From the NCBI RefSeq assembly GCF_005871085.1, contig NZ_VAUP01000031.1, positions 62,001-126,000 of the forward strand: a stretch of DNA of 64,000 nucleotides. The letters are read 5' to 3'. The stretch comes from Xanthobacter autotrophicus. Lineage in GTDB: Bacteria; Pseudomonadota; Alphaproteobacteria; Rhizobiales; Xanthobacteraceae. Below the pieces are notes generated by a model. The model was given only the letters and a program-made list of their open reading frames with translations. It was not told the origin of the DNA and ran no database searches. Below are positions 35,117 to 54,557 of this stretch, piece by piece; the first letter of the stretch is position 1, and every line of letters begins with the position of its first letter. The position numbers and the translations under genes were made by a program.

Positions 35117-35131
35117 TGGCACACCCCTTGC
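35117..35131 (+). promoter_or_regulatory. Sigma-54 (-24/-12) promoter of hupSLC
   Basis: TGGCAC-ACCCC-TTGC matches the RpoN consensus TGGCAC-N5-TTGC exactly, with GG and GC separated by the required 10 bp. Transcription would start near 35142, about 60 bp before the hupS ATG. Sigma-54-dependent hup promoters driven by HupR/HoxA or NifA are established in rhizobia and Rhodobacter, and an NtrC-type activator gene is part of this cluster. Confidence 0.85.
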
Positions 35132-35201
35132 TGAAACGGTTCCAATCCCCCGGCCTCGACGCCGGAGGGGAGGACAAGGTCAGCCAAGGGGGGACGCCTT
35201 T

Positions 35202-36314: not shown

Positions 36315-38125
36315 CCATCCAGACGCCGAATGGCTTTTCCCTCGACACCTCCGGCAAGCGCATCGTGGTCGATCCGGTCACCCGCATCGAAGGCCACATG
36401 CGCTGCGAGGTGAATGTCGACTCCAACAACATCATCCGCAACGCGGTCTCCACCGGCACCATGTGGCGCGGGCTGGAAGTCATCCTGAAGGGCCGCGACC
36501 CCCGCGACGCCTGGGCCTTCGTGGAGCGCATCTGCGGCGTGTGCACCGGCTGCCACGCGCTGACCTCCGTGCGCGCGGTGGAAGACGCGCTCAACATCAA
36601 GATCCCCAACAACGCCTTCCTGATCCGCGAGATCATGGCCAAGGTGCTGCAGTGGCATGACCACGTCGTCCATTTCTACCACCTGCATGCGCTGGACTGG
36701 GTGAACCCGGTCAACGCCCTGAAGGCGGACCCGAAGGCGACGAGCGTCCTGCAGCAGTCCATCTCGGCGCATTCCAAGTCCTCGCCAGGCTATTTCCGCG
36801 ACGTGCAGAACCGGCTGAAGAAGTTCGTGGAGAGCGGACAGCTCGGCATCTTCAAGAACGGCTATTGGGACAACCCGGCCTATCTCCTGCCCCCCGAGGC
36901 GGACCTTCTGGCGGTGACGCACTATCTGGAAGCGCTCGACTTCCAGAAGGAGATCGTGAAGGTCCACACCATCTTCGGCGGCAAGAACCCGCACCCGAAT
37001 TATCTCGTGGGCGGCGTGCCCTGCGCCATCAACATGAACGGCGACATGGCCGCCGGCGCCCCGCTCAACATGGAGCGGCTGAACTTCGTGAAGCTGAAGC
37101 TTCAGGAAGCCTTCGAATTCTCCCAGAACGTCTATGTGCCGGACGTGATCGCCATCGCCTCCTTCTACAAGGGCTGGCTCTATGGCGGCGGGCTTTCCGG
37201 CCAGAATGTCATGGATTATGGCGACTACGAAGCCATCCAGGGCCAGAAGAAGACCGACCGCCTGCCCGGCGGCGTCATCCTCAACGGCAACTGGAACGAG
37301 GTCCACCCCATCGATCCGCGCAACCCGGATGAGGTGCAGGAATTCGTGGCCCATTCCTGGTACACCTACGGCGATGCGAACAAGGACAAGGGCCTGCATC
37401 CGTGGGACGGCATCACCGATCCCCAGTATGTGCTCGGCCCCAATGCCAAGGGCACCCGCACCAATATCGAGGCGGTGGACGAGAACGCCAAGTATTCGTG
37501 GATCAAGGCACCGCGCTGGAAGGGCAATGCGGTGGAGGTGGGTCCGCTCGCCCGCTACATCCTCGCCTATGCCCAGGGCGTCGACTATGTGAAGGGGCAG
37601 GTGGACGAGGCGCTGGGCCAGTTCAACACCCTGGCCGGCACCCAGCTGACCGCCAAGCAGGCGCTGCCCACCACCATCGGCCGCACGCTGGCCCGCGCGC
37701 TGGAGGCGCATTACTGCGCCAAGATGATGCTGGACGATTTCGACCACCTCATCGCCAACATCAAGGCCGGCGACACCTCCACCGCCAACATGGAGAAGTG
37801 GGACCCGTCCACCTGGCCGAAGGAGGCCAAGGGCGTGGGCACGGTGGCCGCGCCCCGCGGCGGCCTCGGCCACTGGATCAAGATCAAGGACGGGCGGATC
37901 GAGAACTACCAGTGCGTGGTGCCCACCACCTGGAACGGCGGGCCACGCGATCCCAAGGGCAATATCGGCGCGTTCGAGGCCTCCCTCATGAACACGCCCA
38001 TGCAGCGCCCCGAGGAGCCGGTGGAGATCCTGCGCACGCTGCACTCGTTCGATCCGTGCCTGGCCTGCTCCACGCACGTCATGTCCGAAGGCGGCGAGGA
38101 ACTCGCCCGCGTCACCGTCCGCTGA
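36311..38125 (+). CDS. hupL: Uptake [NiFe]-hydrogenase large subunit
   Basis: A 604-residue catalytic subunit that oxidises H2 at the NiFe(CN)2CO site. The four metal ligands are C75 and C78 (RICGVC) and C583 and C586 (DPCLAC). The C-terminus DPCLACSTH is followed by a 15-residue tail beginning VMSEGG that is removed after H589 by the protease HupD once nickel is inserted. Conserved DPVTRIEGH (21-29) is present. The GTG start overlaps the hupS stop, giving stoichiometric coupling. The protein is exported piggyback on HupS via Tat. Confidence 0.97.
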
Positions 38126-38137
38126 GGGAGGGATGCC

Positions 38138-38890
38138 ATGAGCGATACCTCACTTTCCGGCGCCGCCCCTCCGGCGGCCTCCGCGACCCCGGTCGCGCAG
38201 GCGATCAAGGGTGGAAGGAAGCTGACCACCGTCTATGTGTATGAGGCGCCGGTGCGCCTCTGGCACTGGGTGAATGCGCTGTCCATCGTGGTGCTGTGCA
38301 TCACCGGCTACTTCATCGGCTCGCCGTTCCCGACCCTGTCGGGGGAGGCGAGCGCCCATTACCTCATGGGCACCATCCGCTTCGTGCATTTCGCGGCGGG
38401 CTACATCCTCGCCGTGGGCTTCCTCGGGCGGATCATCTGGGCCTTCTTCGGCAACAAGTATTCCCGCGAGCTGTTCACCTTCCCGTTCTGGCGGAAGAGC
38501 TTCTGGCGGGGCTTCTTCGTGGAGATCAAGTGGTATGCGTTCCTGAAGCCGCGTCCGCTGAAGTTCGTGGGCCACAATCCGCTGGCCCAGGTCTTCATGT
38601 TCTTCGTGATGGTGCTGGGGCTGGCCTTCATGATCGTCACCGGGTTTGCCCTCTATTCGGAAGGCACCGGGCCGGGATCGTGGCAAGACAAGCTGTTCGG
38701 CTGGGTGCTGCCGCTGCTGGGCGGCTCCATGCAGGTGCACACGCTGCATCACCTGGGCATGTGGGTGATCATCCTGTTCGTGATCATTCACGTCTATTCG
38801 GTGATCCGCGAGGACATCATGTCTCGCCAGACCATGGTCTCGGCCATCACCAACGGTCACCGCACCTTCCGGGACGACGATCCGGAGTGA
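38138..38890 (+). CDS. hupC: Hydrogenase b-type cytochrome subunit
   Basis: A 250-residue membrane protein with four transmembrane helices that anchors HupSL and passes electrons to the quinone pool. Haem-ligand histidines lie in YEAPVRLWHWVNALS (about 30-44), RFVHFAAGYILAVGF and HTLHHLGMWVIILFVIIHVYSVIRED (about 204-229). The first 25 residues are a Ser/Ala/Pro-rich extension. It is 12 bp from hupL with a GAGGGAGG ribosome-binding site and is followed by a strong terminator. Confidence 0.95.
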   Translation: MSDTSLSGAAPPAASATPVAQAIKGGRKLTTVYVYEAPVRLWHWVNALSIVVLCITGYFIGSPFPTLSGEASAHYLMGTIRFVHFAAGYILAVGFLGRIIWAFFGNKYSRELFTFPFWRKSFWRGFFVEIKWYAFLKPRPLKFVGHNPLAQVFMFFVMVLGLAFMIVTGFALYSEGTGPGSWQDKLFGWVLPLLGGSMQVHTLHHLGMWVIILFVIIHVYSVIREDIMSRQTMVSAITNGHRTFRDDDPE

Positions 38891-38937
38891 AGGCGCGGGT
38901 GGACGGCCGGGCCTGACGGCGGCTGAATGGACGACAG

Positions 38938-38967
38938 AAAGGGCGCGGCGCCGGCCGCGCCCTTTTT
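38938..38967 (+). terminator. Strong intrinsic terminator after hupC
   Basis: The stem aaagggcgcggc / gccgcgcccttt (38938-38949 with 38954-38965) has a 4-nt loop and a TTTTT tail, about 50 bp after the hupC stop. It separates hupSLC from the maturation genes on the same strand. Confidence 0.88.
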
Positions 38968-39164
38968 CGTTGATCCGTCCCTTTTCGCTCCGCGGAGGGC
39001 GCGAAAAGGCATGGAATTGCCTCCCACCATCCGGAAGCCGGGAACTATGATTCCAATTTATGGATAAACTGGACATAGTCATTCCATATGTCACTATCCG
39101 GCCATGTATGAGGTATGCAGCCGCCACGATCCGAATCAACGCTTTGTCTGGCTTTGCGAACGGC

Positions 39165-39179
39165 TGGCATGCTCCTTGA
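39165..39179 (+). promoter_or_regulatory. Imperfect sigma-54-like promoter upstream of hupD
   Basis: TGGCAT-GCTCC-TTGA keeps the GG-N10-G spacing of -24/-12 promoters but has A in place of the invariant -12 C. It lies 69-83 bp upstream of the hupD start, behind the hupC terminator, where a second promoter is needed. The mismatch lowers confidence. Confidence 0.35.
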
Positions 39180-39247
39180 ATTGGAGAAGCTCGAAAATCA
39201 GGCGGCGGTAGACCGTCGTGGGAGGCCAGCCAGGAGGGATGCGTCGC

Positions 39248-39874
39248 ATGGACGACGATCGGCAACTTGCGCGCATTCTGGTGCTCGGCATCGGCAACAT
39301 CCTGTGGGCCGACGAGGGCTTCGGCGTCCGCGTGCTGGAAGCGCTCGACGCCTCCCACGTCTTCCCCGAGGCGGTCACCCTGCTGGATGGCGGCACCCAG
39401 GGCCTCTATCTGCTCCCCTATCTGGAGGAGGCGGACGGCGTGGTCATCGTGGATGCGGTGGATTACGGCCTTGTCCCCGGCACCCTCCACATCCTCGCCG
39501 ATGGCGAGGTGCCCGCTGTGCTCGCCGCTCGCAAGGTGAGCCTGCACCAGACCGGCTTTCAGGAGATCCTCGGCCTGCTCGCCCTGCGCGGCAAGACGCC
39601 GGCGCGCATCGTGCTGGTGGGCGTGCAGCCTGAGCTGCTGGACGATTACGGCGGCGGCCTCACCGCCACCATCGCCGCGCAGGTGGAGCCGGCGGCGCGC
39701 AAGGTGCTCGACATCCTGAAGGATGAGTTCGGCGTGGTGCCCACGCCCCGTGCAGGAGAGGGCAGCCTCGTCACCGCCGCCGTCGGCCGACAGTCCTATG
39801 AGAGCGAGCGCCCGAGCGCTGAGGCGGCCTGCCGCATCGGTGATCCCCGCGTCCTCGCCACCCCCCGGAGCTGA
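39248..39874 (+). CDS. hupD: Hydrogenase maturation protease
   Basis: A 208-residue endopeptidase that clips the HupL C-terminus after nickel insertion. Nickel-sensing ligands known from HybD are conserved: E23 (ADEGFG), D69 (VIVDAVD) and H100 (SLHQTGF). The strand GIGNILWADEG and the DGGTQGLYLLPYL region match the M52 family. The ATG at 39248 is chosen because AGGAGGG ends about 10 nt upstream; the ATG at 39239 would be too close. About 30 residues beyond the core are variable and acidic/Ser-rich. Confidence 0.95.
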   Translation: MDDDRQLARILVLGIGNILWADEGFGVRVLEALDASHVFPEAVTLLDGGTQGLYLLPYLEEADGVVIVDAVDYGLVPGTLHILADGEVPAVLAARKVSLHQTGFQEILGLLALRGKTPARIVLVGVQPELLDDYGGGLTATIAAQVEPAARKVLDILKDEFGVVPTPRAGEGSLVTAAVGRQSYESERPSAEAACRIGDPRVLATPRS

Positions 39875-39877
39875 GCC

Positions 39878-40210
39878 ATGTGCCTCGGCCTGCCTATGCG
39901 CATCGAGGAGGTGGACGGCACCTTTGCCCAGTGCCGCGCCGAGGGCGCGCGGGAGCGGGTGGACCTTGCCCTGGTGCCTGAGGCGCGCGCCGGCGACCAT
40001 GTGCTGGTGTTCCAGGGCACCGCCCGCCGCCTGCTGGACGCTGATGAGGCGCGCCTCATCAGCGATGCGCTCGCTGGTGTCGCCGCCATCATGGCGGGGG
40101 AGGCGGACGCCGCAGCCATCGACCGCGCCTTCGCAGATCTCGCCGATCGCGAGCCCACTTTGCCGCCCCATCTCGCCGCGGCCTATGCCGCCGGCCGAAA
40201 GGAAGCCTGA
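39878..40210 (+). CDS. hupF: HypC-family hydrogenase chaperone HupF
   Basis: A 110-residue HypC/HupF-type protein starting MCLGLPMRI; Cys2 is the conserved N-terminal cysteine that contacts the large-subunit precursor. It is longer than HypC and has a C-terminal extension (about 75-110). In R. leguminosarum HupF is dedicated to HupL stabilisation under oxygen. It sits 3 bp behind hupD and overlaps hupG by one base. A true HypC is encoded separately at 46435. Confidence 0.92.
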   Translation: MCLGLPMRIEEVDGTFAQCRAEGARERVDLALVPEARAGDHVLVFQGTARRLLDADEARLISDALAGVAAIMAGEADAAAIDRAFADLADREPTLPPHLAAAYAAGRKEA

Positions 40211-40620
40211 TGTCCGAGGCCGCGATCCCCGATGCCAATCTCCATCCCCTGGTGCGCCGGCTCGTGTCCGAGCGCGCCTGGCCCTATCTGGAAGCGCCCG
40301 AGGACACGGCGCGGCTTGATGCGCGCGACCATTTCCTGTTCCTGCCGGCCCACGGCAAGGCGCATCTGGAAAGCCCGGATATCGCCGTGGTGCTGCCGGA
40401 GCTGGTGAAGGCGCTGGGCGGCGAGGCGGTCCTCGGCGTCGCAGTGGCTGGGCCGAAGACGGAGGCCGCCCTGCGCGACGCCCTCAGCCTCGCGCTGCCG
40501 GCCATCGTGGTGGTGCGCGGCGGGCTACCCGTGGGCGCCATCTCCCGCATGCGCGATTGGGACGAATATCTCGAACGCCTCGGCGCGCTGCTGAAGACCC
40601 CATCCGTCGCCACCCACTGA
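40210..40620 (+). CDS. hupG: Hydrogenase assembly protein HupG (HyaE family)
   Basis: A 136-residue thioredoxin-fold protein with DHFLFLPAHGKAHLESPDIAVVLPEL (about 39-64) and VVRGGLPVGAISRMRDWDEYLERL (about 100-124), as in HyaE/HoxO. The redox CxxC of thioredoxins is absent, as in the family. HyaE/HoxO/HupG proteins act as small-subunit chaperones, probably in complex with HupH/HoxQ before Tat export. The start codon overlaps the hupF stop. Confidence 0.92.
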   Translation: MSEAAIPDANLHPLVRRLVSERAWPYLEAPEDTARLDARDHFLFLPAHGKAHLESPDIAVVLPELVKALGGEAVLGVAVAGPKTEAALRDALSLALPAIVVVRGGLPVGAISRMRDWDEYLERLGALLKTPSVATH

Positions 40621-40649
40621 GGCTGAGACCCACAGAAGGCACGCCCCGA

Positions 40650-41504
40650 ATGTCCTCTTCCCCCTTCGCCACACAGCCCCCCGTCGGCTTCGGCCCCGGC
40701 AGCCAGTCCGGCAGCGACGAGGAGGGCCTCGCCTATCTGCCTTTGCCCTCCGGCATGCGCATCTTCGAGGCCCATCTGCCGGAAGTGGCAGACCCCGACC
40801 GCCTCGCCCCGGCTTTGAGCGTGCTGGAACAGGTGATCGCGGCGCTCCAGAGCTGGCAGCCGGGGACGAGCCACGTCATCCCGCTGACCCATCTCGACCG
40901 GGACAATATCGCTCTGGTGGATGAGGCCATGGGCGAGGGAGAAGTCGCCATCAAGGTGGCGGCTTTTGGCGATGCCCGCGCCATGGAAATCCAGGAAGCG
41001 ACTTTTGCCGGGGTGTGGCGCCTGCGCGGTGCCGCCGGCACCGACCGCATCGAGGTGGCGGCCTTCCCGCGCGGCGCGCTGGTGCGAGCCTTCGGCGCCG
41101 GTGCGGGCATTGATCTTGAGGGGCTGGACACGCCGGCGCCCGGCATCTTCAACGCCCCGGCCCTGCTGGTGGAGATCGACCACCGCGCCCGCGCCCGCCA
41201 GCCGGGGGAGCTGCCCCACGTCATCAACCTGTCGCTGCTGCCCCACACGCCGGAAGACCTCGCCATGCTGGATGCGCGGCTGGGACAGGGGGCGACCACC
41301 GTGCTCTCGCGCGGCTACGGCAATTGCCGTATCGACGCCTGCGCCACGCGGAACGTCTGGCGGGTGCGCTTCTACAATTCGCAGGACATGCTCATCCTCG
41401 ACACCATTGAGGTGATCGAGGTTCCGGAAGTGGCCTGCGCCGCCCGCGAGGACATCGCCGACAGCGCTGAGCGCCTCACCGACGTGCTGGCGGCGATCCG
41501 ATGA
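40650..41504 (+). CDS. hupH: Hydrogenase expression/assembly protein HupH
   Basis: A 284-residue member of the HupH/HyaF/HoxQ family that assists small-subunit maturation. Diagnostic stretches are LPSGMRIFEAHLPE, GEGEVAIKVAAFGDARAMEIQEATFAGVWRL (about 91-121), and the C-terminal TTVLSRGYGNCRIDACATRNVWRVRFYNSQDMLILDTIEVIEVPEVACAAREDI (about 212-265). The ATG at 40650 gives the usual family start; the frame also runs upstream into hupG. It overlaps the next gene by four bases. Confidence 0.95.
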   Translation: MSSSPFATQPPVGFGPGSQSGSDEEGLAYLPLPSGMRIFEAHLPEVADPDRLAPALSVLEQVIAALQSWQPGTSHVIPLTHLDRDNIALVDEAMGEGEVAIKVAAFGDARAMEIQEATFAGVWRLRGAAGTDRIEVAAFPRGALVRAFGAGAGIDLEGLDTPAPGIFNAPALLVEIDHRARARQPGELPHVINLSLLPHTPEDLAMLDARLGQGATTVLSRGYGNCRIDACATRNVWRVRFYNSQDMLILDTIEVIEVPEVACAAREDIADSAERLTDVLAAIR

Positions 41505-42412
41505 GCGCCATGTCTGCTGCTCCTGCTTCCCACGCCTTCTTCGAAGGCTCCTATCTCGGTGACCGGGCGCGCCTTGCCCCCACCGCGCGCCTCGAATGCA
41601 AGGTGTGCTGGCACGTCTATGACCCCGCCGAGGGTTGCGAGACGTGGCAGATCCCGGCCGGCACGCCGTTCACCGCGCTGCCCGAGCACTGGCGCTGCCC
41701 GGTCTGCGACGGCGCCCGCGACCAGTTCATGGTGCTGGATGGCGGCACGCCGGACCTGCCCGCCATCGCTCCCCCCGTGGCGGTGGATCCCCATCTGGAC
41801 GCCCAGCTCAAGGACATGCCGGGGCGGTTCGAGGCGGTGTTCCGCGAGATCCATTCCGCCAAGATGAAGGGCGTGCCCTTCGTGAACGAGAGTCTGGGGG
41901 TGAAGGCCGTGGGCTTCCGCGCCCATGAGGGCCGCGCGCTCGGCGTGCTGGTGACGCCGTGGTTCATGAATCTGGTGCTGCTACCGGGCGCGCAGGACGA
42001 CTGGAGCGGCCTGAGAACCGGTGACAAGGAGCTGATCGCCTTCCCGTCCGGCACTTACGAATTCCTCGCCGCCAACCGGCCGGAGACGGGGCCCTACAAG
42101 GCCTGCTCCCTGTTCTCGCCCATGTTCGATTTCTCCTCCATGCTGCAGGCGGTGGAGACGGCGGCGGCGGTGCTGCCGGCCCTGTTCGATGCTGCCAACC
42201 GGGAGGAGGGCACCCGCTCCGGCGAGATCCGCCGCCGCGCGGAAGAGGAGGCGGCGACGCTTGCCCAGGCCGAAGCGGCCGCGCTTGCTTCCGAGGAACC
42301 CGCACCCCGGCCCGCCGGTCCGCCGCCCGAAATGTCCCGCCGCGCGGTGATCCTCGGCCCGCGCGCGGCGCAGAGTGTGGCCCCGGAAGGCCCGCAGGAC
42401 GGCGCGGCATGA
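41501..42412 (+). CDS. Fusion of rubredoxin (HupI) and hydrogenase assembly chaperone (HupJ)
   Basis: A 303-residue two-domain protein. Residues about 28-80 are a complete rubredoxin: C33 and C36 (LECKVCWHVYDP), C66 and C69 (WRCPVCDGARDQF). Residues about 95-235 are a HupJ/HybE/HoxT-type [NiFe]-hydrogenase assembly domain (RFEAVFREIHSAKMKGVPFVNESLGVKAVGFR, LVTPWFMNLVLLPG). An Ala/Glu/Pro-rich tail of about 70 residues follows, containing PPPEMSRRAVILG. In R. leguminosarum and Cupriavidus the rubredoxin and HupJ/HoxT proteins are encoded by separate adjacent genes. The fusion fits a combined role in protecting and delivering the small-subunit FeS cluster; that mechanism is inference. Confidence 0.9.
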   Translation: MSAMSAAPASHAFFEGSYLGDRARLAPTARLECKVCWHVYDPAEGCETWQIPAGTPFTALPEHWRCPVCDGARDQFMVLDGGTPDLPAIAPPVAVDPHLDAQLKDMPGRFEAVFREIHSAKMKGVPFVNESLGVKAVGFRAHEGRALGVLVTPWFMNLVLLPGAQDDWSGLRTGDKELIAFPSGTYEFLAANRPETGPYKACSLFSPMFDFSSMLQAVETAAAVLPALFDAANREEGTRSGEIRRRAEEEAATLAQAEAAALASEEPAPRPAGPPPEMSRRAVILGPRAAQSVAPEGPQDGAA

Positions 42413-43395
42413 TCCACGCGCCCGCCACGCTCCGCCGCCTCACCATCGCGCTCGACGGGCGCGCTGGGATGTGGCGCTTTGGGCGGGAGACCGGCCCGGA
42501 CCCGGCGCAGGCTCTGGTGGGCCGCACGCCGGAAGAGGCGGCGCGGCTCGCGCCCCTCGTCTTCAATCTGTGCGGCGCCGCCCATGGCTTTGCCGCCGCC
42601 ACCGCCCTCGGCCTGCCGGCGGCGGCTGATGGTGCCGCCATGGCCCGCGAGACCGTGCGCGATCACGCCCTCGCCATGCTCCACAGCTGGCCGCAGGCGC
42701 TGGGCGCGGCCCCCGACCGCGCCGCGCTGGGCCTGCTTGCCCGGCCGGACGGTGCGGACGCCTTCGCAACCGCTCTGGTGGGGGAGGGTGCCGAGCTTTC
42801 GGCCTTCTCGCCCGCCGAGCTGGACGCTTGGCTTGCCGAGGCGCAAACGCCCACCGCCCGCCTGCTGGCCCGCATCCGCCGCGAGGTCGATCCCGCCGAG
42901 GGGCGGGCGGGGCTGCCGGACTTGACGGCGCAGGACGTGGCGGCAGCGCTCGTTCCGACGCAGGTTTCAGACGCTGGTGGGTTGCGCGAGACCGGCGCCC
43001 TCGGCCGGGTGGCGCGCACGCCGCTGGTCGCCGCCCTCCTCGCCGGCGAGGGGCCGAGCCTGTTCGTGCGCCTGCTGGCCCGGCTGGTGGATTGCCTCGC
43101 GGCGCTGAAGCCGGCGCTCCTTTTGACAGACGATCTGCCGCCCGGCCTCGGCATCGCGCCCGCCGCGCGCGGGCTGCTGGGCCATGGGGCGCGGGTGGAG
43201 GCGGGGCGCGTCGCAGCCTACCGCATCCTCTCCCCCAGTGCCTGGAACCTTGCCCCCGGCGGCCTGCTGGAGCGCGCCTTCGCGGCGTTGACGCCCGGCC
43301 CCTTGGCACGGCGGCTGGCGCCGCTTCTGGTGTCGGCCATCAATCCGTGCGTGCCGGTTACCTTGTCCTTCGCGGAGGAGCCCGCCCATGCATGA
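42409..43395 (+). CDS. hupK: Hydrogenase maturation scaffold HupK
   Basis: A 328-residue protein related to the large subunit. It retains decayed versions of both metal motifs: NLCGAAH (about 53-59), in place of RICGVC, and INPCVPV (about 315-321), in place of DPCLAC. HupK/HoxV is considered a scaffold on which the Fe(CN)2CO group is handed to HupL. The sequence is Ala/Gly/Leu-rich. It overlaps hypA by eight bases. Confidence 0.9.
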   Translation: MIHAPATLRRLTIALDGRAGMWRFGRETGPDPAQALVGRTPEEAARLAPLVFNLCGAAHGFAAATALGLPAAADGAAMARETVRDHALAMLHSWPQALGAAPDRAALGLLARPDGADAFATALVGEGAELSAFSPAELDAWLAEAQTPTARLLARIRREVDPAEGRAGLPDLTAQDVAAALVPTQVSDAGGLRETGALGRVARTPLVAALLAGEGPSLFVRLLARLVDCLAALKPALLLTDDLPPGLGIAPAARGLLGHGARVEAGRVAAYRILSPSAWNLAPGGLLERAFAALTPGPLARRLAPLLVSAINPCVPVTLSFAEEPAHA

Positions 43396-43729
43396 GATGG
43401 CGGTGTGCGAGAGCCTGCTTTCCGCCATGGAGGAGGCGGCGCAGGCGCAGAATTTCTCCCGCGTCACTCGCGTGCGCCTCGCCATCGGCCGCTTCGCCGG
43501 CATCGAGGTGGAGGCGCTACGCTTCGGCTTCGATGTGGTGATGCGCGGCTCCCTCGCCGAGGGCGCCGAGCTGGTGGTGCTGGAAGAGGACGGCAGCGCC
43601 TGGTGCTTCGACTGCTGCGAGACGGTGGCGCTCTCCCACCGCCTCGCCTCCTGCCCGAAATGCGGCGGGGAACGCCTCGTGCCCAATGGCGGCACGGACA
43701 TGAAGATCAAGGACCTGGAGGTGTTGTGA
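43388..43729 (+). CDS. hypA: Hydrogenase nickel incorporation protein HypA
   Basis: A 113-residue nickel chaperone. The N-terminal nickel site MHEM (H2) and the zinc loop C73-x2-C76 and C89-x2-C92 (WCFDCCE, CPKCGG) are intact. HypA delivers nickel with HypB to the HupL precursor. It overlaps hypB by one base (TGATG). Confidence 0.95.
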
Positions 43730-44732
43730 TGTGCACGGTCTGCGGCTGTAGCGGCGACGGCGCCACCATTTCCGATGCCACGGGCGGGCATGCGCACGCC
43801 CATCCTCATGAGCACGGGCATGCCCACGGGCACGGCGAGGGCCATGCCCACGCTCTCGGCGAGGCCCACGTCCACACCCATGCGGACGGCACCACCCACA
43901 GCCACGGCCATGATCACGGGCACGGCCACGACCACGCCCACCCCGCCGGCGGCACCCTCGACTACGGCGCCGGCCCCGCCCGCGCCCATGCGCCGGGCCT
44001 GTCCCAGGCGCGCATGGTGGAGATCGAGACCTCCATCCTCGCCAAGAACGACGATTACGCCGCCCGCAACCGCGCCCGCTTCGAGGCCGCCGGCCTGCTC
44101 GCCCTGAACCTGCTCTCCGGCCCCGGCGCGGGCAAGACCACGCTGCTGGTGGAGACGCTGAAGGCGCTCGCCGGCCGCCTGCCCACTGCCGTCATCGAGG
44201 GCGACCAGCAGACCGACAACGACGCCGCGCGCATCCGCGCCGCCGGGGTGCCGGCGGTGCAGATCAACACCGGCAAGGGCTGCCACCTCGACGCCCACAT
44301 GGTGGGGCACGCGGTGGAAAAACTGCCGCTCCCGCCCGGCGGCGTGCTGTTCATCGAGAATGTGGGCAACCTCGTCTGCCCCGCGGCCTTCGACCTCGGC
44401 GAGACGAAGCGCGTCACCCTCATCTCGGTGGCGGAGGGCGACGACAAGCCGCTGAAATATCCCGACATCTTCGAGGGTGCCGACCTCGTCCTCATCACCA
44501 AGGCGGACCTCGCGCCGCATGTGGACGCGGACATGGCGCAGCTTGAGGCCAACATCCGCCGGGTGAATCCGCGCGCCGACATCCTGCGCGTTTCCGCGCG
44601 GGGCGAGGTGGGGCTGTCGCGCTGGATCTCCTGGCTGGACAAGGCCCGCGCGGAGCGCCTCGACGCGCTCGCCGCCGCCCGCGAGAGCGAGGCGCTGGCG
44701 CTTCGCGCGGCGATGGCGGTTGGGGGCGAGCG

Positions 44733-44736
<4 letters not shown>
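43729..44736 (+). CDS. hypB: Hydrogenase nickel incorporation GTPase HypB with His-rich nickel-storage segment
   Basis: A 335-residue SIMIBI GTPase. It has the N-terminal high-affinity nickel motif CTVCGC (C2, C5, C7), a histidine-rich stretch at 21-71 (21 His in 51 residues), Walker [10 protein letters not shown] (K136), [10 protein letters not shown], the metal-binding [10 protein letters not shown] loop and the [13 protein letters not shown] guanine motifs. The His-rich segment is like that of rhizobial HypB, which stores nickel. The downstream activator gene overlaps by four bases (GTGA). Confidence 0.96.
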
Positions 44737-46211
<1,475 letters not shown>

Positions 46212-46253
46212 GGGGGTGGGGATGCATCTGCTCTCGACAGTCACGGTGCAAAG

Positions 46254-46389
46254 CCCTCTCCCGCTTGCGGGGGAGGTTTGGGAGGGGGCAAGGCAGCATG
46301 GGTTGGAGCGCGGCGCGGCTCTTGTCCCGCTGTTCCGACCTGGCCCGGCAGGACCCCCTCCCCAGCCCTCCCCCGCAAGCGGGAGAGGG
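46254..46389. repeat. Paired palindromic repeat, family A (copy 3), inside the hup/hyp operon
   Basis: Inverted units at 46254-46288 and 46354-46389, about 65 bp apart, occupy most of the 223-bp gap between hupR and hypC. They share the CCCTCTCCCGCTTGCGGGGG / CCCGCAAGCGGGAGAGGG hairpin with the four other loci. This is the only sizeable gap between hupD and hupE. Confidence 0.85.
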
Positions 46390-46434
46390 AGTACGCCCCT
46401 TCCTCCCCATCCGCGATCTGAATAGGAGCCCCCC

Positions 46435-46749
46435 ATGTGCCTCGGCATTCCCGGTCAGATCGTCGCCGTCGCCGATGAGGACGCCATGCTGTGCGTGGTG
46501 GATGTCTCCGGCGTCCGCCGCGCCGTGGACGTGGTGTGCGTCGCCGAGCCCGGCGCGCCGCTCAGCGACCTCGTGGGCGCGTGGGTGCTGGTGCATGTGG
46601 GCTTCGCCATGAGCCGCATCGACGAGGAGGAGGCTGCCGCCACCCTCAAGGTACTCACCGAGATCGGCGAGGCGGCGGCGGAAATGGAAGCGCTGACAAA
46701 AGGCAGCGTCGATCTCGTCAGCGTCGATCTTCACCCCACCACCGCCTGA
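46435..46749 (+). CDS. hypC: Hydrogenase maturation factor HypC
   Basis: A 104-residue chaperone starting MCLGIPGQIVAV; Cys2 binds HypD and the large-subunit precursor during transfer of Fe(CN)2CO. The C-terminal helix DEEEAAATLKVLTEIGE is typical. It is 10 bp from hypD. It differs from HupF in the window (LGLPMR versus LGIPGQ) and is the general HypC of the pair. Confidence 0.93.
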   Translation: MCLGIPGQIVAVADEDAMLCVVDVSGVRRAVDVVCVAEPGAPLSDLVGAWVLVHVGFAMSRIDEEEAAATLKVLTEIGEAAAEMEALTKGSVDLVSVDLHPTTA

Positions 46750-46759
46750 GGAGACGGCC

Positions 46760-47884
46760 ATGCGCTACGTCGACGAATTCCGCGACCCCGCCCTCGCCTC
46801 GGTGCTGGTGAAGGAGATCGGCGCCATCTCCACCCGGCTGGAACGCGGGCGGGACCGGCCGTTCGCCATCATGGAAGTGTGCGGCGGGCACACCCACGCC
46901 ATCTTCCGCTATGGGCTGGAAGGCCTGCTGCCGGACCTTGTGGAATTCGTGCATGGGCCGGGCTGCCCGGTGTGCGTGCTGCCCATGGGCCGGGTGGACG
47001 ATTGCGTCGCCATCGCCGAGCGGGAAGAGGTGATCTTCGCCACCTTCGGCGACGCCATGCGCGTGCCGGGCTCCCGCAAGAGCCTGCTCCAGGCCAAGGC
47101 GGACGGGGCGGACGTGCGCATGGTCTATTCGCCCCTCGACGCCCTTGCGCTGGCGAAGCGCAATCCCGGGCGGCAGGTGGTGTTCTTCGGCCTCGGCTTC
47201 GAGACCACCATGCCCTCCACCGCACTCACCGTGCTGCGGGCGGCGCGGGAGGGGGTGGAGAACTTCTCCCTGTTCTGCAACCACATCACCATCATCCCCA
47301 CGCTCCGGGCTTTGCTGGAGCAGCCGGACCTTGGCATCGACGGCTTCATCGGGCCGGGGCATGTCTCCATGGTCATCGGCACGGCGCCCTACCGCTTCAT
47401 CGCCGAGGAGTTCCACAAGCCCCTCGTGGTGGCGGGCTTCGAGCCCATCGACCTGCTGCAATCCCTGCTCATGGTGCTGCGCCAGATCGAGGCCGGGACG
47501 GCGGCAATCGAGAACCAGTATGCCCGCGTGGTGCCGGAGCACGGCAATCCGCAGGCGCTGAAGGCAGTGGAGGAGGTATATGAGCCGCGCGAGACCTTCG
47601 AATGGCGCGGCCTCGGCTCCATCGCCGGCTCCGGGGTGCGGCTCAAGGCGCCCTATGCGGCGTTCGATGCGGAGAAGCGCTTCAGCGTGCCCGACGTGAA
47701 GGTGGCGGACCCCTCGTCCTGCCGCTGCGGCGAGGTGCTGACCGGCGCGGTGAAGCCGTGGGCATGCCCGGAATTCGGCACCGGCTGCACCCCCGAGACG
47801 CCGCTGGGCGCACTCATGGTGTCGTCGGAAGGTTCTTGCGCCGCCTATTACCAATATGGTGGCGTGCGGGGAGAAGCCGCATGA
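46760..47884 (+). CDS. hypD: Hydrogenase maturation protein HypD
   Basis: A 374-residue Fe-S protein that assembles the Fe(CN)2CO ligands with HypC and HypE. The conserved blocks are MEVCGGHTHAIFRYG (about 34-48), FVHGPGCPVCVLP (about 62-74), GFETTMPSTA, GFIGPGHVSMVIG and the C-terminal [4Fe-4S] cysteine set in SSCRCGEVL...WACPEFGTGCTPETPLGALMVSSEG. All are intact. The start is 10 bp after hypC; the stop overlaps hypE. Confidence 0.96.
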   Translation: MRYVDEFRDPALASVLVKEIGAISTRLERGRDRPFAIMEVCGGHTHAIFRYGLEGLLPDLVEFVHGPGCPVCVLPMGRVDDCVAIAEREEVIFATFGDAMRVPGSRKSLLQAKADGADVRMVYSPLDALALAKRNPGRQVVFFGLGFETTMPSTALTVLRAAREGVENFSLFCNHITIIPTLRALLEQPDLGIDGFIGPGHVSMVIGTAPYRFIAEEFHKPLVVAGFEPIDLLQSLLMVLRQIEAGTAAIENQYARVVPEHGNPQALKAVEEVYEPRETFEWRGLGSIAGSGVRLKAPYAAFDAEKRFSVPDVKVADPSSCRCGEVLTGAVKPWACPEFGTGCTPETPLGALMVSSEGSCAAYYQYGGVRGEAA

Positions 47885-48957
47885 ATATCCCCGTCCTCTC
47901 CCCCATTCCCGCCCCCACCCGCCGCCGGCCGCTGAGCCACAAGACGGTGACGCTCGCCCATGGCGGCGGCGGCAGCGCCATGCGCGACCTCATCGATGAC
48001 GTGTTCCTCGCCGCCTTCTCCGGCGACGGGCGCGCCGCGCCCGAGGACCAAGCCCGCTTCGACCTCGCCGCCCTGATGGCCCATGGCGACCGCCTCGCCT
48101 TCACCACCGACGGCTTCGTGGTGGACCCTTTGTTCTTTCCCGGCGGCGACATCGGCAAGCTCGCCGTCTGCGGCACGGTGAACGACCTTGCCGTGGGCGG
48201 GGCCAAGCCCGTGGCGCTCTCCTGCGCCGTCATCATCGAGGAGGGCCTGCCGGTGGAGACATTGCGGCAGGTGGCGGCCTCCATGGCGCAGACCGCGCGG
48301 GCGGCCGGGGTTGCCATCGCTACTGGTGACACCAAGGTGGTGGCGCGTGGGGCCTGCGACAAGCTCTTCATCACCACCACCGGCATCGGCGTGGTGCGGC
48401 GGGGGCTCGACGTGGGCATCGCCAGGGCGCGGCCCGGCGACGTGCTTCTGGTGAACGGCCTTCTGGGCGACCATGGCGCCGCCATCCTCAATGCGCGCGG
48501 CGACCTTGCCCTTGAGACCACCATCGAGAGCGACTGCGCGCCGCTGAACGGCCTCATCGAGACGCTGATCGAGGCCGCACCCGGCATCCGCATGATGCGC
48601 GACGCCACCCGCGGCGGCGTCGCGGCGGTGGTGAACGAACTGGCCGAGGCCAGCGCCGTGGGGGTGCGGCTTGCCGAACTCAGCTTGCCCATGCGGGCCG
48701 AGGTGATGGGCTTCTGCGAGATCCTGGGCCTCGACCCGCTCTATCTCGCCAACGAGGGCAAGATTCTCGCCGTTGTGCCGCCGCAGGAGGCCGACGCCGC
48801 GCTTGCGGCGCTGCGCTCCCATCCGCTGGGGCGGGAGGCAGCCGTCATCGGCGAGGTCACGGCCCAGCGGCCCGGACGGGTGGTCATGCAAACGCGCTTC
48901 GGGGGCGAGCGCATCGTCGATATGCTGGTCGGCGATCAGTTGCCCCGCATCTGCTGA
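47881..48957 (+). CDS. hypE: Carbamoyl-dehydratase HypE
   Basis: A 358-residue PurM-like ATPase that converts the carbamoylated C-terminal cysteine to thiocyanate, the source of the cyanide ligands. The protein ends with the diagnostic PRIC, where the terminal Cys358 is the modified residue. The ATP site GGGGSAMRDLI and DGFVVDPLFFPGGDIGKLAVCGTVNDLAVGGAKP (about 75-108) are conserved. HypF, which supplies the carbamoyl group, is not encoded in this window. Confidence 0.96.
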   Translation: MNIPVLSPIPAPTRRRPLSHKTVTLAHGGGGSAMRDLIDDVFLAAFSGDGRAAPEDQARFDLAALMAHGDRLAFTTDGFVVDPLFFPGGDIGKLAVCGTVNDLAVGGAKPVALSCAVIIEEGLPVETLRQVAASMAQTARAAGVAIATGDTKVVARGACDKLFITTTGIGVVRRGLDVGIARARPGDVLLVNGLLGDHGAAILNARGDLALETTIESDCAPLNGLIETLIEAAPGIRMMRDATRGGVAAVVNELAEASAVGVRLAELSLPMRAEVMGFCEILGLDPLYLANEGKILAVVPPQEADAALAALRSHPLGREAAVIGEVTAQRPGRVVMQTRFGGERIVDMLVGDQLPRIC

Positions 48958-48979
48958 AACCTTCATTGGGGAGAAAAAT

Positions 48980-49579
48980 ATGCGTCACACAGCCCGCACG
49001 GCCCTTGCCGTCGCAGCCTTCTCGGTCCTGCCGCAACTGGCCTTCGCCCATACGGGCGTGGGTGCCACCCACGGCTTCGACGCCGGCTTCGCCCACCCCA
49101 TGGGCGGCCTCGACCACCTGCTCGCCATGGTGACCGTGGGCATTTTCGCCTACCAGCTCGGCGGGCGCGCCATCTGGGCCGTGCCGGTCACCTTCATCGC
49201 CCTCATGGCGGTGGGCGGCGCGCTCGGCATCAGCGGCATCGATGTGCCCTTCGTGGAGTTGGGCATCGGCCTGTCGGTGGTGGTGCTCGGCGCGGCGGTG
49301 GCGCTCGGCGTGAAGGCCCCGCTGGCCATGGCCATGGGGCTGGTGGGCTTCTTCGCCATCTTCCACGGCCACGCCCACGGCGCCGAGATGCCCGAGGATG
49401 CCTCCGGCCTCGCCTATGGTGTCGGCTTCATGTTCGCGACGGCACTGCTGCATGTGGCCGGCCTTGGCCTCGGCATGGCCATCGGCCGCTTCGGCGAGAC
49501 CCATGGCACACGCTATGTGCGGGGCGCCGGCGCTGCCGTGGCGCTGGCCGGCATCGGCCTCGTCACCGGCATTCTGTGA
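48980..49579 (+). CDS. hupE: HupE/UreJ-family nickel permease
   Basis: A 199-residue inner-membrane protein: signal peptide with cleavage after AFA (residue 23), six hydrophobic helices and the nickel motif HPMGGLDHLLAMVTVG (39-54). A second His-rich loop, FHGHAHG (about 114-120), follows. HupE imports nickel for hydrogenase in R. leguminosarum. The ATG at 48980 is chosen because a GGGGAG Shine-Dalgarno and a complete signal peptide follow hypE by 22 bp. It is the last gene of the cluster. Confidence 0.94.
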   Translation: MRHTARTALAVAAFSVLPQLAFAHTGVGATHGFDAGFAHPMGGLDHLLAMVTVGIFAYQLGGRAIWAVPVTFIALMAVGGALGISGIDVPFVELGIGLSVVVLGAAVALGVKAPLAMAMGLVGFFAIFHGHAHGAEMPEDASGLAYGVGFMFATALLHVAGLGLGMAIGRFGETHGTRYVRGAGAAVALAGIGLVTGIL

Positions 49580-50823: not shown

Positions 50824-51300
50824 TCACTCGGCGGAAAGGCGCTTTCCGGCCTTGTGGGCCTCGATCCACTTGTGGATTTCCTGGACGTGCTCCGTTTCCT
50901 CTTCGTAGAATTCTTTCGCGAGGATGCGGATTTCAGGGTCGGTGGTCGTGTCGAAAATGGACTTGTAGTATTTCAGGCTTGCTTCTTCGGCATCGCGCGC
51001 AATCTCAAGAGCCTGCGTGCGCCCCATGAAGGGATCCGCCGCCCAGATTCCCGCCGTCTCCGGGCTTTCCAGATCCGGCCAATTATATTCTTCGGGCTTC
51101 ATTTCGGGCATGTCGCGGAATGCAGCGCGCGCGCGGGCATCAGCCAGATGCAGCCGTGAATAATCCGACAGCCGCCTGAAAAGAGCGGCGACCTCGGTAT
51201 TTCCGCAGCTCTGCATGACATCCGCAAGCTCCCCGAAACGAAGGGCGGCCTCCTCCTCGAGCTTTGCGGCATAAGACAGGAATTCACCAACGGTTTCCAA
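50824..51300 (-). CDS. Rubrerythrin/ferritin-like diiron protein
   Basis: A 158-residue four-helix-bundle protein. Candidate diiron ligands are the Glu in LEEEAALRFG, E/H in LSDYSRLHLADA, EEASLKYY and EEETEHVQEIHK, spaced as in rubrerythrin-type diiron sites. The rubredoxin domain of classical rubrerythrins is missing. A hydrogen-peroxide-reducing or iron-storing role is inferred. It lies directly downstream of the FeSII-like ferredoxin gene on the same strand (164 bp apart), which supports joint function in oxygen or peroxide protection. Confidence 0.82.
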   Translation of the reverse strand: METVGEFLSYAAKLEEEAALRFGELADVMQSCGNTEVAALFRRLSDYSRLHLADARARAAFRDMPEMKPEEYNWPDLESPETAGIWAADPFMGRTQALEIARDAEEASLKYYKSIFDTTTDPEIRILAKEFYEEETEHVQEIHKWIEAHKAGKRLSAE

Positions 51301-51464
51301 GGCATTACCCTTCCGAAAAAATCAAGAATATCAGATCTTCACCCAGAACACCGATCGGATTGCACAGCACTCCGATCGGGTCCGGCACTCATTGCGGAAG
51401 CGAGAACGCGTCACCCGATCCGCCGGCGATGCAAGCTGACCGGTGCATGCTCCAGAGGCGCAGG

Positions 51465-51830
51465 TCACGCCTCGGCGGGGCAATGCTCATAGTGAATGAT
51501 GACTTCTTCCTCGCGGGCGATGAACTGGCAGGCCAGCCGATAAGGCGGTGCGATATCGTTGACTTCCGCGTCCGCGATCTGCTCCTCGGTGATCTTGCCG
51601 AGTTCCTTGAGCTTGGTCTTTTCCCGCTCCGTCAGCGCAATCGCCATGCGCGGCTTGCCCTCGACATATTCGACCCGGATGAGGCAGGAACCGCACTCGC
51701 CCTCCTGGCATTCGAAGGGGATCTTCACGTCGTTGGCGCGGGCGACGGCGAGAATTGTCCCGGTGTCACCGGCAGTGGCGTAGGCGCGCTTGTCCTTGGT
51801 GGTCGTCGACCGAAAAGTGATGATGGGCAT
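51465..51830 (-). CDS. FeSII (Shethna protein II)-like 2Fe-2S ferredoxin
   Basis: A 121-residue plant-type [2Fe-2S] ferredoxin. Ligands are C41, C46 and C49 in the block VKIPFECQEGECGSCL, and C101 in PPYRLACQ. The block VKIPFECQ-x-G-x-CGSCL, the inserted charged helix (about 66-90) and PPxYRLACQ match my recollection of Azotobacter FeSII, which binds and shields nitrogenase from oxygen. The length (121) also matches. The protein is cytoplasmic. It is not a simple electron-transfer ferredoxin of the FdxE type; that distinction is from memory. Confidence 0.8.
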   Translation of the reverse strand: MPIITFRSTTTKDKRAYATAGDTGTILAVARANDVKIPFECQEGECGSCLIRVEYVEGKPRMAIALTEREKTKLKELGKITEEQIADAEVNDIAPPYRLACQFIAREEEVIIHYEHCPAEA

Positions 51831-51872
51831 TGTCTTTTTCCAATCGCCTGAAGTTCTATTTTCGTCAAAAAA

Positions 51873-51888
51873 TGCGAAACCCGTGCAT
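51873..51888 (-). promoter_or_regulatory. Sigma-54-like promoter candidate for the FeSII-like gene
   Basis: On the minus strand the sequence ATGCACGGGTTTCGCA keeps GCACG-N4-T-x-GCA spacing of a -24/-12 promoter with two consensus mismatches, including one of the two G bases at -24. It lies about 43-58 bp upstream of the start codon. No NifA TGT-N10-ACA upstream site was seen. Confidence 0.3.
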
Positions 51889-51993
51889 GAATACGCTTAG
51901 GCTATACTTCGAGCGATATAGTCGAAAAAGCCCGTAGACATCTCCGCAAGCGGCACGTCTTTTTCCACTTATTCCAAAGACAAGTTCAGTTTG

Positions 51994-52007
51994 TTGACAT
52001 GGGTCAT
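51994..52007. promoter_or_regulatory. FNR/FixK-like box upstream of the FeSII-like gene
   Basis: TTGAC-ATGG-GTCAT is a near-perfect FNR/FixK half-site pair (TTGAC-N4-GTCAA) with one mismatch. It lies about 165 bp upstream of the ferredoxin start in an AT-richer intergenic stretch. The distance makes direct activation uncertain. Confidence 0.4.
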
Positions 52008-52079
52008 TTCGGGGGAAATTTTCATCGGGGCGGCTGGATGCCGGCGGCCGCGCCTTGGCTTCCTACGCGGCCGGGCAAC

Positions 52080-52107
52080 AAAAAAGGGCGGCCCTGAGGC
52101 CGCCCTT
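52080..52107 (-). terminator. Intrinsic terminator of the rpsO-pnp transcript
   Basis: A 10-bp GC stem (52084-52093 with 52098-52107) and tetraloop; on the minus strand it is followed by a run of T (52085-52080). It follows the pnp stop by about 28 bp. Confidence 0.9.
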
Positions 52108-52135: not shown

Positions 52136-54328
52136 TCACTCCGCGGCGCCAGCCTCGTCGCCGGTGGCGGCCGGGGCGGCGGCGCGAGCGGCGTCGCGCT
52201 CGGCCTTGGCCTTGGCTTCCAGGTCCTCGCCTGTGGCCTGATCCACCACCTTCATGGACAGGCGGGTCTTGCCGCGCTCGTCGAAGCCCATGAGCTTGAC
52301 CTTGACCTTGTCGCCTTCCTTGACCACGTCGGAGGGCTTGGCCACGCGCTCGTTGGCCATCTGCGACACGTGGACGAGGCCGTCCTTGGAGCCGAAGAAG
52401 TTCACGAAGGCGCCGAAGTCCACCACCTTCACCACGGTGCCTTCATAGATCTGGCCCACTTCCGGCTCGGAAGCGATGGACTTGATCCAGTTGATGGCGG
52501 CCTTGATGGCGTCGCCCGAGGCCGAGGCGATCTTGATGGTGCCGTCGTCCTCGATGTTGATCTTGGCGCCGGTCTTCTCGACGATCTCGCGGATCACCTT
52601 GCCGCCGGAGCCGATCACTTCGCGGATCTTGTCCACGGCGATCTTCATCACCTCGATGCGCGGGGCGTGCTCGCCCAGTTCCGCGCGGGCGGTGGTGAGG
52701 GCCTTGGCCATCTCGCCGAGGATGTGGACGCGGCCGTCCTTCGCCTGGGTGAGGGCGACCTTCATGATCTCCTCGGTGATGCCGGCGATCTTGATGTCCA
52801 TCTGGAGCGAGGTCACGCCCTGCTCGGTGCCGGCCACCTTGAAGTCCATGTCGCCGAGGTGATCCTCGTCGCCGAGGATGTCGGAGAGCACGGCGAACTT
52901 CTCACCCTCGAGGATGAGGCCCATGGCGATGCCCGCCACCGGACGGCGCAGCGGCACGCCCGCATCCATCAGCGCCAGCGAGGTGCCGCAGACGGTGGCC
53001 ATGGAGGACGAGCCGTTGGACTCGAGGATTTCCGACACCACGCGCAGGGTGTAGGGGAACTCGTGCTTGGCCGGCAGCATGGGGTGGATGGCGCGCCAGG
53101 CGAGCTTGCCGTGGCCGATCTCGCGGCGGCCCGGCGAGCCCATGCGGCCGGTCTCGCCCACGGAGAAGGGCGGGAAGTTGTAGTGCAGCAGGAAGTGCTC
53201 CTTGTAGGTGCCCTCCAGGCTGTCGATGAACTGCTCGTCCTCGCCGGTGCCGAGCGTGGCGACCACGAGGGCCTGCGTCTCGCCGCGGGTGAACAGGGCC
53301 GAGCCGTGGGCGCGGGGCAGGATGCCCACTTCCGACACGATGGGGCGGACGGTGTACACGTCGCGGCCGTCGATGCGGATGCCCTCGTCGAGGATGCTCC
53401 AGCGCACGATCTTGGCTTCGAGCGCCTTGAACACGTCGGAGACCACCTGGGCGGTGGGCACCTTGGTGCCGTCGAGGGCCAGTTCCTCGTAATACTTCTT
53501 CACCTTGGACTTGGCAGCGCCGACCGCCTCGTAGCGGGACTGCTTCTGCTTGATCTTGTAGGCGGCGCGCAGGTCGGCCTCGGCGATCTCGCGGACCTTG
53601 GACTCCACCTCGGAGACATCGGCCGGCTGGAAGTTGCGCGGCTCCTTGGCGGCCTTCTCGGCCAGCTTGATGATGGCCTCGATCACCGGCTGGAAGTGGC
53701 GGTGGCCGAACATCACGGCGCCGAGCATGATCTCCTCGGGCAGCTCTTTCGCTTCCGATTCCACCATGAGCACGGCGTCGCCCGTGCCGGCGACCACCAG
53801 CTCAAGCGCGCTTTCCTTCACCTCGTCCACGGTGGGGTTCAGCACGTACTCGTTGTCGACGAAGCCCACGCGCGCAGCGCCCACCGGACCCATGAAGGGC
53901 ACGCCCGAGAGGGTGAGGGCGGCGGAGGCGGCGACCATGGCGACCACGTCGGGGTCGTTCTCCAGGTCATGCGCCAGCACGGTGATGATCACCTGGGTTT
54001 CGCACTTGTAGCCATCGGGGAACAGCGGGCGGATCGGGCGGTCGATGAGGCGGGAGACCAGGGTCTCCTTCTCGGAGGGACGGCCCTCGCGCTTGAAATA
54101 GCCGCCGGGGATGCGGCCCGCGGCGTAGGTCTTTTCCTGGTAGTTCACGGTCAGGGGGAAGAAGTCCTGGCCGGGCTTGGGCTCGCGGGCGGAGACCACG
54201 GTGGCGAGTACCTTGGTGTCGCCGTAGGTGGCGAGCACCGAGCCGTCGGCTTGGCGGGCCATCTTGCCGGTCTCGAGAGTGAGGGTGCGACCACCCCAGT
54301 CCAGCTCTTCGCGATGGATATCGAACAT
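52136..54328 (-). CDS. pnp: Polyribonucleotide nucleotidyltransferase (PNPase)
   Basis: A 730-residue phosphorolytic 3'-5' exoribonuclease starting [21 protein letters not shown]. It contains two RNase PH domains (about 1-230 and 310-555), with [14 protein letters not shown] and [20 protein letters not shown] active-site blocks. These are followed by KH (about 560-615, [25 protein letters not shown]) and S1 (about 622-690, [20 protein letters not shown]) domains and an Ala-rich tail. It is part of the RNA degradosome. The gene order rpsO-pnp is conserved; the start is set by alignment to the family, not the earlier in-frame GTG/ATG. Confidence 0.97.
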
Positions 54329-54557
54329 GTGTGTTCTTTCTTGATTCAGGCGCGACGCAGGCAAGCCATGAGCAAGACGGCCGGACGCGCCGCGCGAAGC
54401 AGCTCCCTCAAGAGGAGGCTCCGACGGTTGCGTCCGGCGATCCTGCCATGACCTGTCCTTCGTGCGCGGACCCGCAGCCGGCCCCATGCCCGCTGCGTAA
54501 AGCACGCCTCTTCAAGGCGCGCACGGCGCCGGCCCTCCATGGACCGGGCCGCTGCTG

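Follow-up and report, generated by a model that had tools for sequence, protein, structure and literature searches.

Two adjacent minus-strand genes of Xanthobacter autotrophicus, one encoding a [2Fe-2S] ferredoxin and the other a rubrerythrin-like diiron-family protein, raise the question of whether they form a module that protects nitrogenase from oxygen. They lie in a stretch of 64,000 nucleotides, here called the window. The ferredoxin gene (51465–51830, 121 aa; assigned from its translation, PDB match, the Pfam Fer2 model, tree position and residues) comes first, followed by a gap of 164 bases (51301–51464) and then by the diiron-family gene (50824–51300, 158 aa, TTG start, without a rubredoxin domain; assigned from its translation, PF02915 and PDB 2oh3). 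Both ORFs of the pair described in an earlier note on this DNA are found at these coordinates, and the ferredoxin translation does contain the two blocks, VKIPFECQEGECGSCL and PPYRLACQ, that had pointed to FeSII (Shethna protein II) of Azotobacter. As outlined in one report, activated Azotobacter FeSII assembles two MoFe and two Fe proteins into a complex that is inactive and protected; the mechanism of its activation had not been understood, and an oxidation-induced change is reported there (PMC12585515). Another account describes FeSII protection as shown only in two Azotobacter species (PMC11301756).

Judging by its genes, the host fixes nitrogen. Its genome encodes three nifH above cut-off, one of which is followed by nifD, nifK, nifE and nifN, also above cut-off; the nif genes on which the earlier proposal depended are therefore present, and their lack is ruled out. 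Two of the nifH genes share contig C32 (11363–12184 and 52880–53701; loci L214 and L216), where they are separated by 41 kb, point in opposite directions and encode identical protein sequences; FixA-, FixB- and FixC-like genes follow one copy and nifDKEN the other, and each copy stands behind a 12/12 sigma-54 site and two UAS motifs. The third nifH, on contig C16, stands behind an 11/12 sigma-54 site. Past the ferredoxin–diiron pair, the window holds an ORF on the opposite strand and then an uptake [NiFe]-hydrogenase cluster (35117–49579, plus strand) with small and large subunits, a b-type cytochrome, HybE-like, HypB, HypD and HypE proteins and an NtrC-type regulator. Ahead of this cluster, at 35117, lies the only sigma-54-type site in the window that scores at least 11/12. 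The hydrogenase small subunit contains CTCCSE and an additional Cys, which we take to be a mark of oxygen-tolerant hydrogenases. A planctomycete nif cluster with FeSII next to hydrogenase genes has been described elsewhere (PMC12628686).

On sequence grounds, the window ferredoxin is an orthologue of FeSII. Its top match in a phmmer search of the PDB is 9iey (4.4e-28; labelled only ‘Ferredoxin’ and nearly identical to FeSII), and Azotobacter vinelandii FeSII (5ffi) is matched at 2.3e-27, whereas the first ordinary ferredoxin, 1frd, appears at 0.0017 and the other ordinary ones score no better. A maximum-likelihood tree of 46 rows, midpoint-rooted and containing one very long outlier branch (G868), unites the window protein with Azotobacter FeSII in a 29-row clade supported at 99/99, within which its position next to Azotobacter and the f220 genomes has weak support (93/73). 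The PDB ranking, checked for housekeeping and dehydrogenase-linked ferredoxins, has FeSII entries on top and, together with the tree, rules out a housekeeping ferredoxin. The cluster cysteines C41, C46, C49 and C101 are present with the C-X4-C-X2-C ... C spacing. Moreover, K14-R15 occupies the site of K14-K15 of Azotobacter FeSII, two residues needed for nitrogenase binding (Lou 1999 as reported in PMC3045800), and K36 is also kept. K-R is read at this site in the window, X. autotrophicus AM5, L009 and G917, and K-K in the Azotobacter-like genome G899 and two PDB rows; among the rows compared, a basic pair was found only in the window, AM5, L009, G899 and the two PDB rows, and the f28 and fused proteins have a hydrophobic residue followed by Thr. 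His55, reported to modulate the affinity of FeSII (PMC3045800), is replaced by Tyr; residue 55 also varies within the FeSII clade, and His55 was not treated as required. An AlphaFold model built from four sequences reached a mean pLDDT of 41, too low for reading an adrenodoxin-type dimer, the N-loop or the lid helix from it. Overall, the protein resembles A. vinelandii FeSII (5ffi, 9cu0–9cu2) in its clade, length (within one residue), four cysteines, basic positions 14–15, K36 and nif-bearing host, but differs in being 41% identical, in having Y for H55 and in its diiron-family partner, which was not found in the 16 kb fetched around FeSII of G899. The FeSII equivalence proposed in the earlier note is supported by the PDB matches, the clade and the basic pair.

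The second protein belongs to the ferritin-like family. The Pfam Rubrerythrin model (PF02915) matches it at 37.7 bits against a cut-off of 22.8 and is the sole Pfam model above cut-off; no rubredoxin domain was found in its 158 residues. The best PDB match (7.5e-23, residues 3–148) is 2oh3, a COG1633 protein of Magnetospirillum magnetotacticum titled as an uncharacterized protein. The full rubrerythrin diiron ligand set includes ExxH in helix B. In comparison with the TM1526 protein (1vjx), E15/E17, H51, E105, E135 and H138 are kept, the helix-B Glu is replaced by S48 and helix B reads SxxHxxD. A carboxylate at H51+3 is conserved (D54 in the window, D/E54 across rows), as in 2oh3, which also has S for the helix-B Glu and shows the same ligand-column pattern as the window protein; unlike 2oh3, however, the window protein belongs to an FeSII-linked group. 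The AlphaFold model (three sequences, pLDDT 77) has 2oh3 as its first fold match at TM 0.40 and rmsd 18.6, values at which helix packing and the metal site cannot be judged. A rubrerythrin proper is excluded by the missing canonical ligand and the absent rubredoxin domain. Having no rubredoxin domain of its own, the protein would have to receive electrons from elsewhere, and FeSII is the natural candidate for this role. Anabaena heterocyst RbrA, described as a peroxidase of diazotrophic cells, has a diiron centre that is reported to be reduced by FNR without the rubredoxin part (PMC6616624). The window protein shares family PF02915 with this rubrerythrin but lacks the rubredoxin domain and has one canonical ligand replaced; the reduction of RbrA by FNR may offer a loose precedent for a non-rubredoxin donor.

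The association of the two genes extends well beyond Xanthobacter. Relatives were searched with the window ferredoxin (P0001) in the order and genus samples and with a fused protein in the class and phylum samples. Of the 297 order genomes, 15 contain a close match to the window diiron protein (P0002-like, E<1e-50), namely all 14 FeSII-clade genomes and G296, an 83% complete genome whose contig ends 114 bases from the start of the diiron gene. Weak diiron matches (27–43% identity) were not counted as partners; nifH is present in 1 of 15, 2 of 15 and 0 of 3 genomes with such relatives in the order, class and phylum samples, respectively. In a single-protein contig scan, 80 loci were taken from 178 relatives, and of these only the first three, L008–L010, are close; the other 77, weak matches (29–49% identity) from actinobacteria including Rhodococcus and Nocardia, were set aside. 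When the order and class samples are combined, 17 of 19 FeSII-clade genomes carry FeSII and the diiron gene either fused or side by side, the two exceptions being class genomes in which they stand about 5 kb apart (G339) or on different contigs (G347). In the five genomes of f28 (family codes are those of the tool), the two are neighbours, and the pair is divergent from nifH in 4 of 5 loci, those whose stretch includes nifH. Furthermore, FeSII and a diiron domain form a single ORF in 11 genomes of five families (four in f31, three in f32, two in f94 and one each in f42 and f64; eight from the order and three from the class sample), and Fer2 and Rubrerythrin both exceed their Pfam cut-offs in 4 of 4 fusions tested. 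The diiron part of the fusion is a second, diverged copy joined to FeSII by a linker. The diiron domains of the fusions group together at 100/100, and the FeSII domains of the same proteins do so weakly (83/59), which makes a single fusion event likely. A window-type diiron copy directly follows the fusion in f32, f42, f94 and f64. These fusions strengthen the earlier guess that the neighbour of the ferredoxin is part of the same protection module. Outside the class, a diiron gene was not found near FeSII in the stretches fetched; on a plasmid of Methylococcus sp. EFPC2, for example, nifHDK, FeSII and nifEN follow one another, and a search of the 24 kb for a diiron gene found none.

Several of these loci are linked to nif genes or to nif-type promoter motifs. 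In G238, nifA directly precedes the fusion and the diiron gene, with nifB nearby, and nifB is nearby in G538 as well. Motif scans of the 400 bases upstream of FeSII covered 30 of the 44 FeSII rows, leaving aside 10 of the second clade described below and four others. A -24/-12 site scoring at least 10/12 precedes FeSII in 12 of the 30 loci (L009, five of f28, three of f32, G238, G338 and G538) and TGT-N10-ACA in 9, against backgrounds of 0.031 and 0.063 per 400 bases that were measured over the same loci and so include the sites themselves; both motif types occur in 8 loci. The UAS of f28 may serve nifH alone. Within the same 400 bases, neither a sigma-54 site nor TGT-N10-ACA was found in the window, AM5, G917 or the four f31 loci; in the window itself, no -24/-12 site with GG and GC in place reaches 8/12, the best score being 7.

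Diiron relatives also occur near nif genes on their own. In G780, the order is nifV, one ORF, FixA-, FixB-, FixC- and FixX-like genes, the diiron gene and nifA; in G139, FixC-like, FixX-like, the diiron gene and nifA; and in G339, FixB-, FixC- and FixX-like genes and the diiron gene. The Fix matches are below NCBIfam cut-offs, and nifV and nifA are above them. Diiron relatives (L228, 9077–9541; L218, 7849–8322; L211, 13489–13926) thus follow a FixX-like gene in three lineages and precede nifA in two, and the FixX-adjacent relative is itself a candidate for a nif-linked gene. The diiron relatives of G331 and G347 have housekeeping neighbours, with nifN about 5 kb off in G347.

Given the fusions, the pairing and the linkage to nif genes, the diiron protein is a likely partner of FeSII, and we consider it probable, at roughly 0.6, that the pair is a nitrogenase oxygen-protection module with electron exchange between the diiron protein and FeSII. 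The two Xanthobacter proteins would be in physical contact, and FeSII would take the place of the rubredoxin domain as electron donor to a metal-binding diiron protein. The latter would react with O2 or H2O2 and draw electrons from FeSII, and the same transfer would both remove the oxidant and put FeSII in its oxidised, nitrogenase-binding state. Oxidised FeSII would then associate with the MoFe and Fe proteins and keep them in a complex that is inactive and resistant to oxygen, a shielding step that we infer here from homology and the conserved residues, the mechanism having been shown in Azotobacter. A more specific version, which we propose tentatively and at somewhat less than even odds, is that the diiron protein senses the oxidant and in turn oxidises FeSII directly, an enzymatic switch that would turn on the nitrogenase shield; sensor and shield would then be fused in several families, some of them behind NifA/sigma-54 sites. 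Against the module reading count the missing helix-B Glu, ligands lost from the fused domain of f32, the want of a nif-type promoter in the three Xanthobacter loci read, the presence of the pair in 3 of the 14 Xanthobacter genomes, the separated genes of G339 and G347, the lack of a diiron neighbour in the stretches fetched outside the class, Y for H55 and the fact that weak diiron relatives are mostly in genomes without nifH.

Both proteins could instead serve nitrogen fixation without exchanging electrons: FeSII would shield nitrogenase, the diiron protein would handle iron or peroxide, for example in cofactor assembly, and fusion or pairing would only fix their ratio and place. Such a division of labour would suit the diiron genes that stand beside FixX-like genes and nifA without an adjacent FeSII. 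It would also suit family f32 (L147, L148 and L143), in which E105, E135 and H138 are gone from the diiron domain of the fusion; this is apparently a pseudo-enzyme domain that might have a structural role, and an intact separate copy lies directly downstream. Against it stand the retention of such an intact copy next to the fusion in f32, f42, f94 and f64 and the presence of a diiron domain in one chain with FeSII in five families, and we regard this alternative as doubtful.

The protection-module reading also depends on the ferredoxin being a shield and not an electron carrier. A ferredoxin implicated in oxygen protection of Mo-nitrogenase, FdxD of Rhodobacter capsulatus (PMC10936413, as described there), resembles the window protein, by its description, in being a [2Fe-2S] ferredoxin associated with nitrogen fixation. 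A second nif-linked ferredoxin clade (f13, f15, f44 and f49; 11 rows, 100/99), perhaps FdxD-like, is separate in the tree, and the window protein falls outside it. Ferredoxins of this clade (L103, L106, L108–L110 and L155–L160) lie 2 to 5 kb from nifH in 5 of 6 longer stretches, and no diiron partner was found in those stretches. If the window ferredoxin were a carrier, FdxD-like or for another enzyme, the pair could be a general peroxide defence. The window protein is 42.7% identical to a second-clade protein and 40.7% to Azotobacter FeSII, and the Xanthobacter pair lies outside the nif cluster, lacks a nif promoter and is patchy in the genus, all of which would fit a carrier. Plain pairwise identity does not separate FeSII from the second clade, however, whereas the tree does, placing the ferredoxin with FeSII, and K14-R15 and K36 agree with Azotobacter FeSII.

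The genomic company of FeSII speaks against a carrier as well. In the order sample, FeSII homologues (threshold 1e-8) occur in 25 of 297 genomes and nifH in 46, and all 25 are within the 46 (Fisher p 5e-24, ignoring relatedness). Among further FeSII genomes, nifH is present in 5/5 of the class sample (289 genomes), 8/10 of the phylum sample (398 genomes) and 1/2 of the genus sample (14 genomes; G917 has it and G915 does not). Over all samples, 39 of 42 FeSII-homologue genomes have nifH and 41 carry nifH, a nifK-model match or both. The three without nifH are G915, which has nifK above cut-off and in which the absence is probably an assembly gap; G632, with an NifN-like match to the nifK model below cut-off; and G868, whose FeSII match is weak (3e-9, 28% identity) and which has neither nifH nor nifK. 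A lineage figure of 6 of about 14 reflects our own grouping of lineages and is not counted as evidence. We therefore regard a carrier as improbable.

Within Xanthobacter, the pair is found in 3 of 14 genomes and sits outside the nif cluster. By contrast, nif genes are found in 14/14 (nifH in nine and a nifK-model match in the other five, with G923 having only an NifN-like one), which makes FeSII a patchy extra among Xanthobacter diazotrophs. The nearest named relative, X. autotrophicus AM5, has a ferredoxin 98% and a diiron protein 94% identical to those of the window, with aligned flanking DNA at 87–96%. Both genes are intact and in the same place in AM5 and G917, and ‘Rhizobiales bacterium 32-66-11’ has the pair in a different place. 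Between G917 (L238) and the window, DNA identity is 78% in the diiron gene, 90% in the FeSII gene and 89–94% in the aligned flanks, and the promoter region does not align. The start region of the diiron gene is conserved in AM5 and G917; its start codon is TTG in the window and G917 and GTG in AM5 and L009. By eye, the palindrome CCGATCGG occurs twice in the gap between the two window genes; these repeats are absent from the shorter gap of AM5. A scan of 51301–51464 found no terminator-like site. Upstream of the pair stands an ORF read by eye as pnp (52136–54505, minus strand), and between them lies a terminator-like hairpin (52084–52107), listed on the plus strand and followed, by eye, by a T run on the minus strand as well; the region has 1 such site against 1.7 in shuffles, no more than expected by chance. 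If real, the hairpin would give the pair its own transcript. Motif scans of the region upstream of the pair (51831–52083) gave no sigma-70-type site on the minus strand, and no TGT-N10-ACA was found within 400 bases of the ferredoxin start. The 3/14 distribution and the missing nif-type promoter might suggest that the pair is decaying or neutral in Xanthobacter, left over from a nif-linked module still functioning elsewhere, but with the frames of both genes intact in all three carriers and the key residues kept, this is very improbable.

No description of a link between FeSII and a rubrerythrin or other diiron protein was found in the literature, which is weak evidence of absence given thin coverage of subscription papers. 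The FeSII of Xanthobacter adds a member to a known family; the pairing and fusion of FeSII with a diiron protein have, within the reach of that search, not been described. Conserved in alphaproteobacterial diazotrophs, this pairing and fusion provide a testable candidate for the trigger of FeSII oxidation. They also enlarge the set of FeSII proteins to test, which would be useful for efforts toward a nitrogenase working in air.
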